Of a stretch of DNA of 64,000 nt, positions 12,015 to 44,115 are shown piece by piece. How positions within the stretch are numbered: the stretch's first letter is position 1; every line of letters begins with the position of its first letter. The DNA is from Paraglaciecola arctica BSs20135. Its GTDB lineage: Bacteria; Pseudomonadota; Gammaproteobacteria; Enterobacterales; Alteromonadaceae. Made by a program: the position numbers and the translations under genes. The notes under the pieces were generated by a model, which saw only the letters and a program-made list of their open reading frames with translations, was not told the origin of the DNA and did not search any database. Where the stretch lies: positions 310,001-374,000 of the forward strand of contig NZ_BAEO01000062.1 of NCBI RefSeq assembly GCF_000314995.1, read 5' to 3'.

Positions 12015-12767
12015 ATGAAAAGTTCAAGTTTGTTTATATTAAGTGGTTTATTTTTATCAAGCGTTGCTTGGGGTACAGAAAATGAAAGTTGGAGTGCCCA
12101 GTCAACTGAAAAACAATTCGAGAAGACAAGTGAGGTGATTTATAAAGCCTCTAATGGTAATCAGACTAATGTGTTGTCTATGACTGCCAACGTCCAGTCA
12201 AAAGCAGCAACTAGTATTAGTCATAAAAAGGATATACAGGCTAAGACTTTGATTGTCAGGCCTGAAGCTAAGGCAAGCAACCAGGAGTTTTGGATTTTTG
12301 ATGCTTGGGTAGAGTTTTTCCGTGATGATGATAGTGATGGGTACTTTAACCATTTTGCCGTCGAGTTTGATGTTGATACCGAATATAGCTCTGCAGAAGT
12401 TTATGCCAGATTATATTTAGGGATAGATGAAGTATTCAAGGAATATCATGCTACCTCCAATTTCAGCATTTATGCTGACAGCAGTCATGATAGTTTTGTT
12501 GTAGAAAGTGAATTGTTAAATGGTTTTCCTGCGGATGATTATGAGGTATTAATTGAATTGTATGATGCTTACAATGATGAGTTGGTAGCTGTTTATGATG
12601 GTAATGATGATGCCGATTTATATTTGTTATCCCTTGAGAGCAAAGAATACGAGTCTACTCAGGTAATAGTTGTGCATGAGCATGGGGGCAGTTTGAGTTT
12701 GCTAAGTTTGTTATTACTACCTCTAATTTCAGTTTGTCGCCGATTTAATAAAGTCTTATCTGATTAG
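12015..12767 (+). CDS. Choice-of-anchor H family protein with GlyGly-CTERM tail
   Basis: A 250-residue exported protein. The signal peptide covers about 1-20. A central acidic domain (about 93-215, from FWIFDAWVEFFRDDDSDG to DDADLYLLSLES) matches the choice-of-anchor H type of small beta domain. The C-terminus carries GG followed by a leucine-rich helix and a basic end (GGSLSLLSLLLLPLISVCRR), a GlyGly-CTERM signal. In known systems such tails are cleaved by rhombosortase and the protein is exported by type II secretion to the cell surface. The ATG follows AGGAAAATGAA. Its role is unknown. A strong terminator follows. Confidence 0.8.
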   Translation: MKSSSLFILSGLFLSSVAWGTENESWSAQSTEKQFEKTSEVIYKASNGNQTNVLSMTANVQSKAATSISHKKDIQAKTLIVRPEAKASNQEFWIFDAWVEFFRDDDSDGYFNHFAVEFDVDTEYSSAEVYARLYLGIDEVFKEYHATSNFSIYADSSHDSFVVESELLNGFPADDYEVLIELYDAYNDELVAVYDGNDDADLYLLSLESKEYESTQVIVVHEHGGSLSLLSLLLLPLISVCRRFNKVLSD

Positions 12768-14088: not shown

Positions 14089-14103
14089 AAAAGCTCCTAA
14101 GTG

Positions 14104-14118
14104 ATATCATAATGATAT
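14104..14118. promoter_or_regulatory. Inverted repeat upstream of the SPFH operon, possible operator
   Basis: ATATCAT-A-ATGATAT is a perfect 7-bp inverted repeat around one base. It lies 16-30 nt upstream of the SPFH start codon in the expected promoter region. Ribbon-helix-helix dimers usually bind such short symmetric sites, and the operon encodes one, so autoregulation is a reasonable inference. Confidence 0.45.
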
Positions 14119-14185
14119 TGTATTGAGGTTAGTCTTAATGCATTTAAAAAGCAAACTATTTGTAATTGCATTGATTGCATCAAGG

Positions 14186-14199
14186 TATTTCATGAAATA
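14186..14199. promoter_or_regulatory. 14-bp perfect palindrome in the SPFH-nuclease intergenic region
   Basis: TATTTCATGAAATA is fully self-complementary. It lies in the 427-nt gap between the divergent SPFH operon and the extracellular nuclease, next to a direct repeat of ATTGCAT. The rest of the gap holds no supported gene. It could be an operator for either side; no regulator family is assigned. Confidence 0.35.
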
Positions 14200-14415
14200 T
14201 TAAGGCCACTGAAGGGCTAGAACTTGTAAAGTTTGGTGATTAATTCGTTGAATTTATGGGAAAGTTGTCAGGTTTTTTATCACATTTGGTACATTGTTTT
14301 TTTTACTTTTTTCTAATTGTTTGTTTTGTATAGCAAAAAAAACTAGGTACAACTATTGCTTAATATCCAGACCAATGGGTCAAGTTTCCCGTTGTCCAAG
14401 CATGTATTCCACTCA

Positions 14416-14433
14416 CTGTCATACGGATGTCAC
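14416..14433 (+). promoter_or_regulatory. Pho-box-like site upstream of the secreted nuclease
   Basis: CTGTCAT-ACGG-ATGTCAC matches the two-half-site Pho box (CTGTCAT, 4-bp A/T spacer, CTGTCAC) at 13 of 14 half-site positions. The orientation is toward the nuclease gene, whose ATG is 82 nt downstream. The spacer is less A-rich than consensus and the -10 region is not obvious. The genome encodes PhoB-PhoR at 43.4-45.6 kb. Confidence 0.6.
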
Positions 14434-14515
14434 AGAAGTAAAAGAACATCGCTCGCACCAAAAGATAATTATTAAAAGTCGGAACACCGACACTTACAAA
14501 TTTTCAGGAGAAAAC

Positions 14516-17500
14516 ATGAAATTGAAATATCCAGCTCTGCTGGCCCTTGTTTGTGCGCCTATGGTTCACGCTGAAATTTTCTTTTCGGAATATGTTGAAG
14601 GATCTGGCAATAACAAGGCCCTAGAAATATACAATCCAACAAGCGCCGTGGTTGATTTAAGTACTTACGCCATTAATTTATTCAGTAATGGTGCAAGTAC
14701 TGCAAGCAGCTCACAAACACTCTCAGGAACGCTTGAACCGGGCGCTACCTTTGTGGTGATTACATCTAATTCAGCTGCAGCCGATGAACTTAAAGCGGTG
14801 GCGAACTTAACGAGCAGTACCATTAATCATAATGGCGATGATGCTTATACCTTGACTGATGGCTCCACTATTGTGGATGCTTTTGGTCAGGTTGGTAATG
14901 ATCCGGGGAGCCAGTGGGAAAGCGATGGCGTAGAAACGCAAAATCAAACCTTGCGTCGCAAATCCTCCGTCCTAACCGGAGATACTGATGCTTTAAATCT
15001 CTTTGCTCCTAGTGCAGAGTGGCAAGAGTTTGCTCAGGATGATTTTTCTGGTTTAGGTTCTCACACCGTTGATGGTGATGTCATCGAAGATATCGCTCCA
15101 TTCGTTGCTGCTTCTACTCCTGCCGATGGTGACCAATTTGTTGCTGTCACTAGCGACATCGTTGTCTCTTTTAGCGAAACAGTTAATGTCACGGCATGGA
15201 ACGATCTGAACTGCAGCCTAAGTGGTAATCATGGGGTTTCTATTACGGGCAGCGGTTCTACATATACTCTCAATCCTGATACAGATTTTGTTTTGGACGA
15301 AAGCTGTACACTAACCATATTTGCTGCCGACGTGACGGATGTAGATGGTACATCTCAAACTATGCCTGAAGATGTAATGATCACGTTCACCACAGGTGTA
15401 TTCCCACTGGTGATTAATGAATTACTGGATGATCCAGCTAATGATTTACCTGGTGATGCTAACGGAGACGGTACCCGAGATTCTAGCGATGATGAATTTG
15501 TAGAATTGGTGAATATTTCTGGTAGCGACTTGGATATTACCGGTTGGTCCATTGCTGATGGTGCCTCAACTCGTCATGTATTTCCGCAAGGATCTGTGGT
15601 TCCGGCAGATTGTGCCATTGTTGTATTTGGTGGAGGCGAGCCTACTGGCGTATTTGGTGGAGCAGTCATACAGACCGCGACATCTGGTGCTATTGGTCTC
15701 AATAACGGCGGCGATACTGTCACGGTTAGCAATGGCAGTGCCAGTGCAGTAATCACCTACGGTAGTGAAGGCAGTGATCAGTCGATCACTCGCAGCCCAG
15801 ATATTACCGGTGAGTTTGTGCAACACTCAAGCATTAACGGTGCGCTCTACTCAGCCGGTACAAAAACCGATGGAATTCCTTTTGATGGTTGTGAAATTCC
15901 AGATGCAGCGCCTTTTGTTGTTGAAAGCAGCCCCGCAGACGGTGCAATAGAAGTTGCAATATCATCTTCGATTAGTTTGACCTTCAGTGAGGCGGTTGCG
16001 GTTTCGGCCTGGAATGCTCTCAGTTGTTCAGTCAGTGGTCCGGTTTCTTTTAGTGTTGAGCAGGATGAGAATACCTTTGTGCTGCAGCCCGATACTCTGC
16101 TTGGGGTAAACGAGGTGTGTACTCTCACAGTTCCGGCAGAAAATGTGACCGATTTGGATGGTTCTGCCGATCCGATGGTGGTTGATTATATGCTTAGCTT
16201 CACTACTGTAGCTGAACTTTTGAGCTGTGATGCTACTTTTACCTTGATTTCTGTTATTCAGGGAGCGGGCGATGTGTCACCCATGGAGGGCGAAAACCTC
16301 AATGTTAAAGCTGTGGTGACTGCAGTTACACCAGCTTTAAGTGGTTTTTTTGTGCAGGAAGAATCTGCTGATTTTGACGCTGATCCCTTAACATCTGAAG
16401 GCTTGTTTGTTTTCAATCCAGACTCTTATGCGGTGCCACAATTAGGCGATGTAGTTGCACTTAAAGGTGGTGTGTCAGAGTTTTTTAACAAAACCCAGTT
16501 GACACTTACTGAGCAGCCAGTAGTTTGCGGGCAGGGTGAGACATCAAGTTCAGCAGTAACGCTTCCTCTTCCTGTTGACCACAACTATGAGTCTGTGGAA
16601 GGTATGTTGGTCGAGGTAGCTCAAGATCTGGTTGTAACTAATACTTTTGGCTACGGACGCTTTGGCCAGGTTGAGCTTTCGAGCGAGTTGCGCTTTATAC
16701 CTACCAATCTATTTACCCCAGGTTCTGCTGCGGCAATTGCAAAGGCCGAGGTAAATGCTCGTGATGTGATCATCATGGATGATGCCAATGACACGCAAAA
16801 CCCGCTTTCACTACCTTTCCCAACTGGTGGCTTGTCTCCACAAAATACCCTGCGCTTGAATGATACTGTGGCCAATTTAATAGGCGTGGTTGATTATAGG
16901 TTCAGTACCTTCATGATTAACCCTTCAGAGCCGCCAATTTTCATCAACAGTAATCCTCGGACTAATGAGCCAGAACTGCTTGCTGGAAATCTAAAGGTTG
17001 CCAGTCTTAATGTGCTCAACTACTTCACCTCGGTTGGTCCAGTGGGTAGCTGTTTTACAGTGGGAGGATTGGAATGTCGTGGCGCAAATAGTGCGGTAGA
17101 GTTTGAACGTCAAAGAGACAAAATGTTAGCGGCGCTAATCGCTATAAATGCTGATATTGTTGGTTTGATGGAAATTGAAAATAATGGATCTGGAGAAAGT
17201 AGTGCCATACAGGATGTAGTTAATGGGTTAAACGCAAGCTTAGGCGAGGGCACCTACGCCGTTGTTGATGCAGGTGGTCCTGTTGGTACTGATGCTATAG
17301 CGGTCGCTTTTATTTATAAACCTGCTGTGGTTTCTCTAGAGGGAGCGGTCGCCATTCTTAATAGTGATAACTCGATAGCAGACGATAATGGTCCATTATT
17401 TGTTGATACTAAAAACCGCCCAGCTTTGGCACAAAAGTTCTCATTGCTTGAAAACGGCGAAGAAATTGTTGTGTCCGTGAACCATCTGAAATCCAAAGGT

Positions 17501-18151
17501 TCTGGTTGTGGTGCTGGTGATGATGATACAACTACAGGTCAAGGTAGCTGTAACCTCACTAGAACCCGTGCAGCAGAAGCATTAACTGCCTTTTTAGCCG
17601 AGGAATTTGCAGATTTACCGACCTTAATCATCGGTGATTTGAATTCTTACGCAAAAGAAGATCCTATCGCTAAAATTGAAGATGCGGGTTACACCAACCT
17701 AGTCAATCATTTTGGTGGGGCAAGTGCTTATTCTTACAGCTTTGCTGGTGAAGTAGGTTATCTGGATCACGCGCTGGCCAACGATAAAGCGTTATCAAAA
17801 GTGGTTGATGTGACTGAGTGGCATATCAACGCTGATGAGCCGATTGTTTTTGATTACAATGTTGAGTTTAAAGACCCGACCAATGTCATTAATTATTATT
17901 CAGCTGACGCATACCGCATGTCTGACCATGATCCTGTTGTGATTGCTTTGCAGTTAGAAGCCGCAGCGGTAATTGGTGATTGGGATGCAGATGGTGATGT
18001 GGATATAGACGATTACCGTGGGCTACTACGAGCAATTCAGCGCCGCCAGTCTGTTGGTATGGAATTTGATTTAAATGAAGACGGTCGCATTACAACCCTT
18101 GATGCTCGCGTTCTTCTAACTTTGTGTACGCGCGCTCGTTGCGCAGCTTAA
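14516..18151 (+). CDS. ExeM/NucH-type extracellular endonuclease with dockerin
   Basis: A secreted nuclease of about 1211 residues. The frame is open further upstream, but ATG 14516 follows CAGGAG and begins a clean signal peptide (1-19, ending VHA). Domains in order: lamin-tail domain (about 20-165), bacterial Ig-like (190-290), second lamin-tail domain (297-450), second Ig-like (460-560), an OB-like domain (570-690), and an endonuclease/exonuclease/phosphatase domain (about 825-1145). The catalytic motifs are visible: LNVLNYF, MEIENNG, VNHLKSKG, IGDLNSY and RMSDHDPV. The C-terminus (about 1151-1211) is a dockerin with two Ca-binding loops, DWDADGDVDIDD and DLNEDGRITTLD. Relatives in Shewanella degrade extracellular DNA and typically end in a GlyGly-CTERM tail, which is absent here. 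A cohesin-like gene follows 17 nt later. Confidence 0.9.
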   Translation: MKLKYPALLALVCAPMVHAEIFFSEYVEGSGNNKALEIYNPTSAVVDLSTYAINLFSNGASTASSSQTLSGTLEPGATFVVITSNSAAADELKAVANLTSSTINHNGDDAYTLTDGSTIVDAFGQVGNDPGSQWESDGVETQNQTLRRKSSVLTGDTDALNLFAPSAEWQEFAQDDFSGLGSHTVDGDVIEDIAPFVAASTPADGDQFVAVTSDIVVSFSETVNVTAWNDLNCSLSGNHGVSITGSGSTYTLNPDTDFVLDESCTLTIFAADVTDVDGTSQTMPEDVMITFTTGVFPLVINELLDDPANDLPGDANGDGTRDSSDDEFVELVNISGSDLDITGWSIADGASTRHVFPQGSVVPADCAIVVFGGGEPTGVFGGAVIQTATSGAIGLNNGGDTVTVSNGSASAVITYGSEGSDQSITRSPDITGEFVQHSSINGALYSAGTKTDGIPFDGCEIPDAAPFVVESSPADGAIEVAISSSISLTFSEAVAVSAWNALSCSVSGPVSFSVEQDENTFVLQPDTLLGVNEVCTLTVPAENVTDLDGSADPMVVDYMLSFTTVAELLSCDATFTLISVIQGAGDVSPMEGENLNVKAVVTAVTPALSGFFVQEESADFDADPLTSEGLFVFNPDSYAVPQLGDVVALKGGVSEFFNKTQLTLTEQPVVCGQGETSSSAVTLPLPVDHNYESVEGMLVEVAQDLVVTNTFGYGRFGQVELSSELRFIPTNLFTPGSAAAIAKAEVNARDVIIMDDANDTQNPLSLPFPTGGLSPQNTLRLNDTVANLIGVVDYRFSTFMINPSEPPIFINSNPRTNEPELLAGNLKVASLNVLNYFTSVGPVGSCFTVGGLECRGANSAVEFERQRDKMLAALIAINADIVGLMEIENNGSGESSAIQDVVNGLNASLGEGTYAVVDAGGPVGTDAIAVAFIYKPAVVSLEGAVAILNSDNSIADDNGPLFVDTKNRPALAQKFSLLENGEEIVVSVNHLKSKGSGCGAGDDDTTTGQGSCNLTRTRAAEALTAFLAEEFADLPTLIIGDLNSYAKEDPIAKIEDAGYTNLVNHFGGASAYSYSFAGEVGYLDHALANDKALSKVVDVTEWHINADEPIVFDYNVEFKDPTNVINYYSADAYRMSDHDPVVIALQLEAAAVIGDWDADGDVDIDDYRGLLRAIQRRQSVGMEFDLNEDGRITTLDARVLLTLCTRARCAA

Positions 18152-18168
18152 TTAAAGGAAGTAGTAAA

Positions 18169-18735
18169 ATGAAAAAAATATTTTTAGCAATCGCCCTAAC
18201 TTGGGCATCAGTAGCGCAGGCAAACATCATCGAAATTAGTACCGATGAAGTGACAGTAACAGCAGGAGAAGAAGTCAATTTTGTAATTGATTTAGTTAAC
18301 TTTGAAGAATTTGACTTTTTGAGCTTTTCCTTAGGTTTCGATGACACACTATTAAGTTTTGACGAAACTAGCCTAACAAGCGATTTTGCATTTGCAGATT
18401 TGATCAGTGGACCGTTCGATGGATTAGATGTTTTTGCAGATCCGGGTAAGCTTTTGTTTACTTTGACAGCTGATTTCTTAATAGGTGAAACTTTTATGGG
18501 CGCGGCTAACTTAGTGACCTTTAATTTTCTAGCAACCGGTACTGGTGTTGCGAACTTCACTCCAGTGTTCGAATCGTTCGATAGTTTGTCGCTCAGCCAA
18601 ACTGAACTTGATGCTCCAAATTTCCGAGTTGCAGCTGACGTAAATCCAGTATCTGAGCCATCAGCACTTGGATTGTTTGCTGTATTTTTACTTGGTGGGG
18701 GTGTTTTACGTCGCCGTTTAGTTGCTTCAAAGTAA
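18169..18735 (+). CDS. Cohesin-like protein with PEP-CTERM-type tail
   Basis: A 188-residue exported protein. The start is ATG 18169 after AAAGGAAG. The signal peptide is about residues 1-18 (ending AQA). The mature domain (about 19-160) has a cohesin-like beta-sandwich pattern: ISTDEVTVTAGEEVNFVIDL, then LSFSLGFDDTLLSFDE and LVTFNFLATGTGVANFT. The C-terminus is SEPS, a hydrophobic GLFAVFLLGGGVL stretch and RRR, a PEP-CTERM-like exosortase signal. It lies 17 nt after the dockerin-bearing nuclease and before a terminator, so the two form an operon. The likely role is to bind the nuclease dockerin and hold it at the surface (inference). The cohesin assignment is by pattern only. Confidence 0.7.
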   Translation: MKKIFLAIALTWASVAQANIIEISTDEVTVTAGEEVNFVIDLVNFEEFDFLSFSLGFDDTLLSFDETSLTSDFAFADLISGPFDGLDVFADPGKLLFTLTADFLIGETFMGAANLVTFNFLATGTGVANFTPVFESFDSLSLSQTELDAPNFRVAADVNPVSEPSALGLFAVFLLGGGVLRRRLVASK

Positions 18736-18744
18736 GCTGATTGA

Positions 18745-18800
18745 TTGCCCCTCTTACGGGGCAATGTTGAAAAAAAGCCTAGCTTCTAGCTAGGCTTTTT
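18745..18800. terminator. Double hairpin between convergent genes
   Basis: The first stem is TTGCCCC-TCTTAC-GGGGCAA (18745-18764 region). The second is AAAAGCCTAGC with GCTAGGCTTTT (18773-18800), followed by T on both strands. It terminates the nuclease-cohesin operon on the plus strand and the acyl-CoA dehydrogenase gene on the minus strand. Confidence 0.85.
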
Positions 18801-18829
18801 CCTGTTTTTAAGCTACTAACAGTAGTTAA

Positions 18830-20590
18830 TTATTGATAATCAAATTCTGCATCACTCACAACCATTAAATCATCTGCCCCATTAAACAAGTTTGTTTTAA
18901 AGCCATCCTTTCTAGGCAACAACCTTTTTAGATAAAAAGCACAAGTGTTGGCTTTACCAGACTTGATACTGGCGTTATCTGAACGTTCAGCAGTATCCGC
19001 CATACTCAACCAAATTACGCCTAACAAACAATAAGCACTGTAGTGCATAAAGTCGTACGCGGTGCCCGCTAAATCAACAGCATTTTGTTGTTTTAACTCA
19101 GTTGCGGCAGCAAACCATTCGGTTAATAATTCTGTTGCTTGGGTTTGTTTATCTGCATTAGTCATTTGTTGTATTTTGCTATTAAACAATGCGAAGGTGT
19201 CTTCAAGCATAGTGCCTTTGTCACGGGCGAGCTTTCTAGAGATTAAATCAAGGGCTTGAATACCGTTGGTACCTTCATACAATTGGGTAATTCTGGCGTC
19301 ACGTACTAGTTGTTCCATTCCCCATTCACGTATAAAGCCATGGCCTCCAAAAACTTGTACACCTAGATTACTCATCTCGCTACCCATGTCTGTCATAAAA
19401 CCTTTAACTATAGGAGTTAAGAAAGAGATAACACTTTTAGCTTTATGTTTATCTTCGTCAGTACCAAAACGTTCGATATCCATTTGTTGTGCATACAGCA
19501 AAGCTAAAGCACGACAGCCTTCAGCTATGGCTTTTTGGGTAAGTAACATCCTGCGCACGTCAGGCTGGTGGATAATAGGATCTGCTTTTTTGTTTTGCTC
19601 CTGCACACCTTGAGGTGCACGTGATTGCAAACGCTCCCGGGCATAGGTCAGCGCTCCTTGATAAGACGCTTCGATAATGCCAAGACCTTGCATACCTACT
19701 TGAAAACGTGCGTCGTTCATCATGGTAAACATACAAGCAAGCCCGTTATTTGCCTCACCGACTAAAAAGCCCTGAGCACCATCAAAATTCATTACACAAG
19801 TAGGGCTAGCTTTAATCCCCATTTTCTTTTCTATACTGCCCACAGTAACCGAGTTTCTTTGGCCAATACCACCGTCGTCAAGAGGGAAAAACTTTGGTGT
19901 TAAAAATAAACTAATGCCTTTCACTCCCGGAGGTGCATCCGGAAGTCTAGCAAGAACCAAATGAATGATATTGTCGGTCCAGTCGTGATCACCTGAAGAT
20001 ATAAATATTTTACTTCCGGTAATATTAAAACTGCCATCTTCATTGGGTATCGCTTTAGTACTCAATAAGCTTAAGTCAGTTCCTGCATGGGGCTCTGTTA
20101 AGCACATAGTGCCAGTCCATTCACCCGAAATGAGTTTGGCTAAATAGGTACGCTTAAGGTCATCGTTGGCATGTTTAGTGATGGCTAATATAGCGCTTTC
20201 GTTAAGCATGCCAGTTAAGCGCCAGCTTAAGTTGGCTGAATCGAGCATTTCGTGTACAGGCACTGCTACGGTATTTGGCAGGTCTTGCCCTTCATAGTCG
20301 GCGCTACCTAACATAGCATTCCATCCGTTTGCTACGTATTCTTTATATGCCTCTGCAAACCCATCAGGGGTAGTGACATTTCCATCAATTAGTTTGGCAC
20401 CTTGCTCGTCACCTTCGCGATTTAGAGGGGCGATGACTTCTTCAGCAAATTTTGCGCCTTGTTGTAAAATTTCATTGACTAACTCCTGATCAAAATCTTC
20501 TAATCCTAGCTTTTGATAATGTTCCGATAGGTTTAACCAGTCATGTAATACAAATTGCATATCTTTAATTGGGGCGATGTATTGAGGCAT
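18830..20590 (-). CDS. Acyl-CoA dehydrogenase with C-terminal extension
   Basis: A 586-residue FAD-dependent acyl-CoA dehydrogenase of the long type that carries the acetyl-CoA-dehydrogenase-like C-terminal domain (the DmdC/AcdA branch). It catalyses alpha-beta desaturation of acyl-CoA or 3-methylthiopropanoyl-CoA-type substrates. Seen: MPQYIAPIKDMQFVL, MCLTEPHAGTDLS, KIFISSGDHD, GGHGFIREWGMEQLVRDARI and the catalytic-base region LYEGTNGIQALDL. It is a single gene. Whether it serves fatty acid degradation or DMSP-derived substrates cannot be told from sequence alone. Confidence 0.9.
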   Translation of the reverse strand: MPQYIAPIKDMQFVLHDWLNLSEHYQKLGLEDFDQELVNEILQQGAKFAEEVIAPLNREGDEQGAKLIDGNVTTPDGFAEAYKEYVANGWNAMLGSADYEGQDLPNTVAVPVHEMLDSANLSWRLTGMLNESAILAITKHANDDLKRTYLAKLISGEWTGTMCLTEPHAGTDLSLLSTKAIPNEDGSFNITGSKIFISSGDHDWTDNIIHLVLARLPDAPPGVKGISLFLTPKFFPLDDGGIGQRNSVTVGSIEKKMGIKASPTCVMNFDGAQGFLVGEANNGLACMFTMMNDARFQVGMQGLGIIEASYQGALTYARERLQSRAPQGVQEQNKKADPIIHQPDVRRMLLTQKAIAEGCRALALLYAQQMDIERFGTDEDKHKAKSVISFLTPIVKGFMTDMGSEMSNLGVQVFGGHGFIREWGMEQLVRDARITQLYEGTNGIQALDLISRKLARDKGTMLEDTFALFNSKIQQMTNADKQTQATELLTEWFAAATELKQQNAVDLAGTAYDFMHYSAYCLLGVIWLSMADTAERSDNASIKSGKANTCAFYLKRLLPRKDGFKTNLFNGADDLMVVSDAEFDYQ

Positions 20591-43362: not shown

Positions 43363-43380
43363 CCGTAATAAAACTGTCAC
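43363..43380 (+). promoter_or_regulatory. Pho box upstream of phoB
   Basis: CCGTAAT-AAAA-CTGTCAC matches the 18-bp Pho box (CTGTCAT-AWAW-CTGTCAC); the second half is perfect and the spacer ideal. It lies 45 nt upstream of the phoB ATG, with an AATAAT -10 candidate at 43391-43396, about 10 nt after the box. This indicates autoactivation of phoB by PhoB under phosphate starvation, as known in other gammaproteobacteria. Confidence 0.85.
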
Positions 43381-43425
43381 ACAAAATCTGAATAATGCGT
43401 CGTTAATGCAGCAAGGAACATAAAA

Positions 43426-44115
43426 ATGGCAAAACGTATTTTACTGGTGGAAGACGAAGCTCCGATCCGCGACATGTTGAAATTTGTGCTGGAACAATCG
43501 GGTTATGAAACCGTTGAGGCTGAAGATTTTCAAATAGCCTTAGACAAGATTGTAGAGCCTTTTCCTGATTTGATTTTATTAGACTGGATGTTACCAGGTG
43601 GCACCGGCGTGCAATTAGCGAAAAAACTCAAGCAACATGAGTATGCTCGAGATATTCCTATTATAATGTTAACTGCCAGAGGTGAGGAAGAAGACAAAAT
43701 TAGGGGCTTGGAAGCCGGTGCTGATGATTATGTGACTAAACCTTTTTCGCCAAAAGAATTGGTGGCAAGAGTCAAAGCGGTGATCAGACGTGTTTCTCCT
43801 ACATCAAGCGAAGATGCCATTGATTACCAAGGTTTGAAACTCGATCCTCTATCCCATCGTGTGACATCTAATGAGACCCCTATTGATATGGGACCAACAG
43901 AATTTAAGCTTCTGCACTTTTTTATGACTCATTCTGAGCGAGTCTATAGCCGTGAGCAGTTGTTGGACAACGTTTGGGGAACTAACGTATATGTTGAAGA
44001 TCGAACAGTAGACGTGCACATTAGAAGGTTACGTAAAGCCTTGTCTGAGTTTTCTCATGATAATATGATCCAAACAGTGCGCGGTGCAGGTTATCGTTTT
44101 TCGAGTAGGGTGTAG
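43426..44115 (+). CDS. phoB: Phosphate regulon response regulator PhoB
   Basis: A 229-residue OmpR-family regulator. A receiver domain (1-120) has the acidic pocket [10 protein letters not shown], phosphoacceptor Asp53 in [10 protein letters not shown], and Lys in [18 protein letters not shown]. The C-terminal winged helix follows ([28 protein letters not shown] and VRGAGYRFS). It activates phosphate acquisition genes at Pho boxes; its own promoter has one. The kinase gene phoR follows after a repeat-bearing 177-nt spacer. Confidence 0.96.

Follow-up and report, generated by a model that had tools for sequence, protein, structure and literature searches.

The window, a stretch of 64,000 nucleotides from Paraglaciecola arctica BSs20135, carries the gene of a secreted nuclease preceded by a Pho-box-like site and, 17 nt past the nuclease stop codon, a small gene encoding a cohesin (Table 1). 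The coordinates predicted originally for both genes and for the Pho-like 18-mer were all correct. The nuclease was proposed to be of the ExeM/NucH type, and this was confirmed by a match to the NCBIfam model NF033681 (ExeM_NucH) that covers the whole profile (E 1.7e-183). Its architecture comprises a signal-peptide-like start, two lamin-tail domains, two Big_5 Ig-like domains, an endonuclease/exonuclease/phosphatase (EEP) core and a C-terminal dockerin. The terminator-like hairpin 3' of the cohesin gene is weak evidence, because a scan of 14100-18900 gives 9 such sites where 4.1 are expected. No sigma-70-like promoter was detected by a scan of the plus strand of the same interval.

Table 1. 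Features of the nuclease-cohesin locus and the phoB gene, in window coordinates.
Feature	Position	Strand	Basis or remark
Pho-box-like 18-mer	14416..14433	+	13/14 half-site bases; starts 100 nt 5' of nuclease ATG
ExeM/NucH-type secreted nuclease, 1211 aa	14516..18151	+	ATG 14516, stop 18151
ExeM_NucH domain (residues 597-1147)	16304..17956	+	NF033681, 611.4 bits (curated cut-off 300)
Type I dockerin, C-x4-C end (Cys 1204, Cys 1209)	17975..18148	+	PF00404 match 17975-18115
Cohesin protein, 188 aa, signal-peptide-like start, PEP-CTERM-like tail	18169..18735	+	Family profile, Foldseek
Cohesin domain as in alignment A3 (residues 19-158; acidic, calculated pI 4.05)	18223..18642	+	
PEP-CTERM-like segment (SEPS, hydrophobic stretch, RRR)	18646..18717	+	PF07589, sub-threshold
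Terminator-like hairpin, 3' of cohesin gene	18772..18800	+	13 pairs, 5 G-C
phoB	43426..44103	+	TIGR02154, 366.9 bits (cut-off 296.2); putative start codon

The nuclease was also predicted to end in a two-loop dockerin in place of the GlyGly-CTERM tail of its relatives, and both parts of this proposal held. Its C-terminus passes the Pfam dockerin profile PF00404 (27.0 bits, cut-off 22.9), and the protein falls far below the cut-off of NF033680 (ExeM-GG; 392.6 bits against 1300) and is not a member of that family. By profile and by its two Ca-binding loops the module is a type I dockerin, for which Ca-dependent binding of a cohesin is predicted. The dockerin model reached a pLDDT of 84.8, and its top 19 Foldseek matches were all dockerins (best E 0.07). 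Among 87 dockerins with a neighbouring cohesin, four alignment columns hold an invariant Asp in 87/87 sequences, and the C-x4-C motif closes the domain in 85, the remaining two having no residue at those columns. The positions beside the Ca loops are strongly variable.

The downstream protein was harder to classify. As a single query it had no match to the Pfam cohesin family (PF00963), retrieved one irrelevant match from the PDB at E ≤ 10 and found no loci in the genome contigs. Profiles were built from 12 sequences, comprising relatives and neighbours of dockerin genes (A2), and from 53 members trimmed of signal peptides and tails (A3), whose sequences differ widely (mean column identity 23%). 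Against the PDB, the top matches of A2 were cellulosomal cohesins (E 6.3e-12), and the top match of A3 reached E 2.9e-13. Scaffoldin, cohesin, cellulosome or NagJ entries made up 27 of the 30 A3 matches at E ≤ 0.1; the other three were two designed Ig proteins and one entry named ribonucleases G and E. PF00963 itself was matched by 21 of the 53 cohesin relatives at E ≤ 0.01, the window member not being among them. An AlphaFold2 model made with six sequences was of moderate confidence (pLDDT 69.5). Among the 50 Foldseek matches listed for it, 49 were cohesins or cellulosome scaffolds by title and one was a pilin; only 6 had E ≤ 0.001, and the TM-scores by query length were modest (0.35-0.53). 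The prediction of a cohesin gene 17 nt downstream is thus upheld by the family profile and by Foldseek, but not by a PF00963 match of the lone protein. On these grounds the 188-aa protein is a cohesin by family profile, with a beta-sandwich fold predicted at moderate confidence.

The pair reported here is one of many. The original prediction, whose reading of the pair our data support, had not foreseen that it recurs with different enzymes. In the P. arctica genome, profile A1 detected five dockerin genes, each adjoining a cohesin ORF (downstream in three, upstream in two), and a sixth cohesin gene is also present. The five paired cohesin ORFs are of 203-244 aa and have space for one domain. 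No cellulosome-type scaffoldin with several cohesins was found in this genome among the cohesins within reach of profile A3.

We then sampled 196 genomes of the family, which we take to be Alteromonadaceae in the GTDB sense. Dockerin was found in 102 and cohesin in 89 of them (both in 86, dockerin only in 16, cohesin only in 3). Among the 150 dockerin places listed, 121 had a listed cohesin on the same strand within 5.5 kb, and in 107 of these the cohesin started at most 600 nt downstream. Conversely, 115 of the 150 cohesins listed were near a listed dockerin and 35 were not, one of the latter being a place in the P. arctica genome that is already paired (L053). A second class made up of solitary cohesins found no support: in 17 of 19 newly examined loci the cohesin has a neighbouring dockerin ORF that scores 15 bits or more, and of the other two, one had a neighbour of only 9.9 bits and one lay beside masked DNA. 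In the loci examined, 94/108 dockerin ORFs were paired (cohesin downstream in 77, upstream in 17), as were 87/89 cohesin ORFs; these counts omit three duplicate loci (L130, L131, L133) as well as any dockerin ORF that is masked in part, and are not random-sample fractions because loci were chosen for dockerin or cohesin, best matches first.

Pairs were also present in 5/5 named loci, those of Paraglaciecola hydrolytica, Thalassomonas sp. RHCl1, Bowmanella pacifica, a Gammaproteobacteria MAG and a Colwellia MAG. The scaffold name of the Gammaproteobacteria MAG reads Psychrobiaceae. Class-wide, among 369 genomes, dockerin was found in 19; 16 of these lie outside the family, 8 of them with a same-strand cohesin nearby, in one case 776 nt away.

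The Pho-box-like site deserves separate consideration. Scored against what we take to be the Pho-box consensus, it is the sole site of 13/14 grade in the window, where 0.1 are expected per 64 kb (both strands, 20 Markov copies). The proposed link to phosphate gained further ground from the phoB gene found in the same window, itself preceded by a 12/14 Pho-like site at 43363-43380 (12/14 sites are expected at 0.7 per 64 kb). We surveyed 33 nuclease upstream sequences, the window included, taken from signal-peptide starts of which a few are doubtful (L118, L216, L223). Sites of at least 12/14 preceded 9/33 nucleases (0.07 expected) and sites of at least 11/14 preceded 18/33 (1.2 expected), with 15 of these 18 beginning 81-135 nt upstream of the start codon used. 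A control set of 52 upstreams from non-nuclease dockerin genes, up to two of them from duplicate loci, yielded no score of 12 or more and a single 11 (1.7 expected). The 13/14 site thus not only stands as predicted but recurs 5' of related nucleases and not of other dockerin genes. It tracks the nuclease rather than the pair, because several such nucleases (e.g., L217, L218, L222) have no neighbouring cohesin.

It could be argued that the site at 14416 is not a working PhoB site, since 15/33 nuclease upstreams score 10 or lower and the upstream sequences are mutually related. In an earlier, poorer survey, moreover, only 1/24 upstreams reached 12, that of the window itself, and 4/24 reached 11; this survey was set aside because many of the chosen starts fell inside genes. 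We regard a non-working site as unlikely in view of the excess over expectation in the better survey, the similar spacing from the start codon, the near-empty controls and the presence of phoB. Phosphate starvation also raises expression of exeM in Shewanella oneidensis, according to an excerpt of the study (PMC6085458). With a Pho box and PhoB in the same genome, the nuclease is a candidate member of the Pho regulon that would be induced at low phosphate.

The enzymes that carry the dockerin are diverse. Dockerin proteins cluster into 20 groups, the largest of which has 55 members and includes the window nuclease. Representatives of 18 of the 19 other groups (one shortened to its first 1000 residues) match M43, M4, M9 and S8 peptidases, BNR_4, porphyranase, lambda-carrageenase, GH42, PKD, VWA and other domains. 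Neighbouring cohesins accompany, among others, nucleases, M4, M9, M43 and S8 peptidases, a porphyranase and a lambda-carrageenase, but none adjoins the GH42-type protein (L089).

Exceptions to pairing occur: 14 of the 108 dockerin ORFs are without a neighbouring cohesin, and 10 of these belong to the nuclease group. Nine loci have the acyl-CoA dehydrogenase gene of the window as the downstream neighbour of the nuclease; a cohesin gene stands between the two in three of them and is absent in six. The cohesin gene was therefore gained or lost while the dockerin was kept. Two of the six nucleases without cohesin (L079, L093) have an added end, ...LFSR. A scaffold elsewhere in the genome serving the unpaired dockerins was considered and found unsupported, as 8/14 re-searched genomes gave no cohesin match at E ≤ 1; in G272 the single weak match sits, by eye, beside another dockerin-like ORF. 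One-to-one pairing is usual but not universal: at L061-L063 one cohesin gene is flanked by two dockerin genes, and L088 has four dockerin genes with two cohesins.

Such shared cohesins, together with unpaired dockerin genes whose genomes encode cohesins at other places (G364, G368, G391, G417), would fit a pooled platform, in which all cohesins of a cell would bind any of its dockerin enzymes and no pair would be private. Most dockerin ORFs, however, have a cohesin neighbour of their own, and the distances between dockerins are correlated with those between their cohesins (Mantel r 0.44, p 0.0005, 87 pairs). Within 42 nuclease pairs a dockerin-cohesin correlation of 0.47 is left once the catalytic domain is controlled for. 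The cohesin is tied just as closely to the catalytic domain (partial 0.52), so that joint inheritance explains part of the dockerin-cohesin correlation. Taking into account also the strong variation of the dockerin beside its Ca loops, we consider a pooled platform improbable and favor pairs that are mostly private.

The tail of the cohesin bears on where such a pair would reside. A PEP-CTERM-like tail had been predicted. The SEPS motif, hydrophobic stretch and RRR are visible, and 29 of the 53 cohesin relatives match PF07589 at E ≤ 0.01, but the window tail has no match at this level and stays below the cut-offs of both PF07589 (11.6 bits against 20.7) and TIGR02595 (13.9 bits against 16). 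A search of the genome for an exosortase, which had been suggested as a check, found one PF09721 protein (E 5.7e-70), identified as XrtA (332.6 bits, cut-off 208). Exosortase was present in 99/102 dockerin-positive and 51/94 dockerin-negative genomes (Fisher p 1.4e-13, with genomes counted regardless of kinship), and in 88 of the 89 cohesin-positive ones. Exosortase is missing from three dockerin-positive genomes (G244, G353, G457), in none of which a cohesin was detected; the same is true of 13 dockerin-positive genomes with exosortase.

Would the cohesin rather bind the dockerin within the envelope, as a membrane-held escort for export or folding and not as the final surface anchor? Its tail alone (helix and RRR) would suffice for retention in the inner membrane, the tail scores below threshold as a PEP-CTERM, and ExeM of Shewanella was located almost only with the inner membrane, as far as an excerpt of the report tells (PMC6085458). 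Against this stand the PEP-CTERM matches in more than half of the relatives and the exosortase in nearly every cohesin-positive genome, XrtA being the one here. An escort confined to the envelope is therefore quite unlikely in our judgment, and a surface or matrix anchor is the preferred reading.

Among the 30 best-scoring ExeM loci (98 genomes), a cohesin lay within about 1.5 kb in 16/18 with a dockerin and in 0/12 without one. That the genes are merely linked, with the cohesin domain recognizing something other than the dockerin, would suit the great divergence of the cohesin sequences but is very improbable for known partners that co-occur at locus after locus and whose cohesin is missing at all 12 of these ExeM loci that have no dockerin.

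From the gene anatomy, the family identities, the recurring linkage, the co-occurrence with exosortase and the nuclease-linked Pho box, we infer a likely arrangement of neighbor-encoded and mostly one-to-one pairs. In each, a cohesin sorted by exosortase would keep its secreted hydrolase at the surface or matrix, with the nuclease under phosphate control. The nuclease would be secreted with a dockerin that binds Ca and is probably closed by a disulfide of its C-x4-C motif. Binding would then consist in capture of this dockerin by the single cohesin domain encoded in the next gene. For sorting, the cohesin would be exported, kept in the inner membrane through its PEP-CTERM helix and subsequently processed by XrtA, after which it may reach the cell surface or the exopolysaccharide matrix. 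Held there, the nuclease would remain close to its producer. Induction would come through phosphate scarcity, upon which PhoB may turn on the nuclease, the putative benefit being the use of DNA as a phosphorus source. Other secreted enzymes would employ the same module, most of them with a neighbor-encoded cohesin, and no shared many-cohesin scaffold would be involved.

The repeated arrangement with several secreted enzymes suggests a common way to keep digestive enzymes near the cell. With somewhat less assurance, we lean toward plug-and-socket display being general in gram-negative marine bacteria, where most secreted dockerin hydrolases would have their own exosortase-sorted single cohesin encoded alongside, for surface anchoring that is addressable, separately regulated, scaffold-free and of a specificity co-evolved pair by pair.

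By profile and predicted fold these proteins resemble the cohesins and type I dockerins of cellulosomal pairs in Clostridium and its relatives. Here, in contrast, each protein of the set examined has one cohesin, whose gene lies beside that of its enzyme; the cargo consists of nucleases, peptidases and enzymes acting on algal polysaccharides, the cohesin has a PEP-CTERM-like tail, and the dockerin ends in C-x4-C. Cohesin- and dockerin-like modules outside cellulosomes were reportedly described by Peer et al. in 2009. The modules found here are likewise non-cellulosomal but form a unit of two genes that recurs and for which we propose a function. Likeness to PEP-CTERM/exosortase sorting lies in the XrtA of the genome and the PEP-CTERM-like tails of the cohesins, with the difference that the sorted protein would be one to which a second secreted protein docks. 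The ExeM/NucH core is common to ExeM of S. oneidensis, which has a GlyGly-CTERM-type membrane tail according to the same excerpt (PMC6085458), whereas the protein studied here has a dockerin and a separate cohesin.

An excerpt of a review on archaea, cohesins and exosortases calls the function of cohesin/dockerin proteins outside cellulosomes not known (PMC5244752). In the open-licence literature we did not find cohesin, dockerin and PEP-CTERM together, nor dockerin with PEP-CTERM; cohesin with exosortase was found only in that archaeal review (PMC5244752). Each of the four components, cohesin, dockerin, PEP-CTERM sorting and ExeM, is known; their repeated use as an enzyme-by-enzyme anchoring module was not found in this literature and may be recorded elsewhere.

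The pattern gives a concrete proposed function to non-cellulosomal cohesins and dockerins and to a class of PEP-CTERM proteins. If true, it would explain how costly secreted enzymes are retained near the cell, with one of them tied to phosphate supply, and it would provide dozens of natural single-cohesin pairs for studies of binding specificity and for enzyme display. The position of the dockerin is not fixed, the module being N-terminal or internal in some proteins (L132, L133, L137, L139, L140, L151).

Dockerin and cohesin genes do not always lie side by side in one fixed arrangement. At five loci (L137, L139, L140, L151 and L052) the order is reversed, with the cohesin gene ahead of the dockerin gene, and in the first four the dockerin lies close to the N-terminus of a large protein encoded after the cohesin gene. 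Three loci (L061, L062 and L063) carry one cohesin gene between two dockerin genes, encoding a nuclease and an S8 subtilase, and a single 18-kb stretch at L088 holds four dockerin ORFs and two cohesin genes. All four of these ORFs fall in the same group of dockerin proteins, their BNR_4 type being judged from the group representative.

No cohesin gene adjoins the dockerin nucleases of L079 and L093. At both loci the nuclease ORF is extended at its C-terminus, and the extra stretch terminates in LFSR.

Locus L231 has an ORF whose end, judged by eye, resembles a two-loop dockerin lacking the closing C-x4-C cysteine pair; directly 3' of this ORF lies a cohesin match that scores weakly, at 22 bits. 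As this example suggests, pairs more divergent than those detected may exist.

The window also encodes a protein with a GlyGly-CTERM tail, for which both profile matches exceed their cut-offs, and the cell therefore probably uses a second C-terminal sorting system. The nuclease gene shares the same 64-kb window with phoB.

Further features of the window (site score, half-site bases matching the Pho-box consensus)
Feature	Position	Score
Choice-of-anchor H family protein, GlyGly-CTERM tail	12015-12767	NF038116, 137.8 bits; TIGR03501, 19.1 bits
phoB, with a Pho-like site just 5' of it	43363-44103	Site, 12/14
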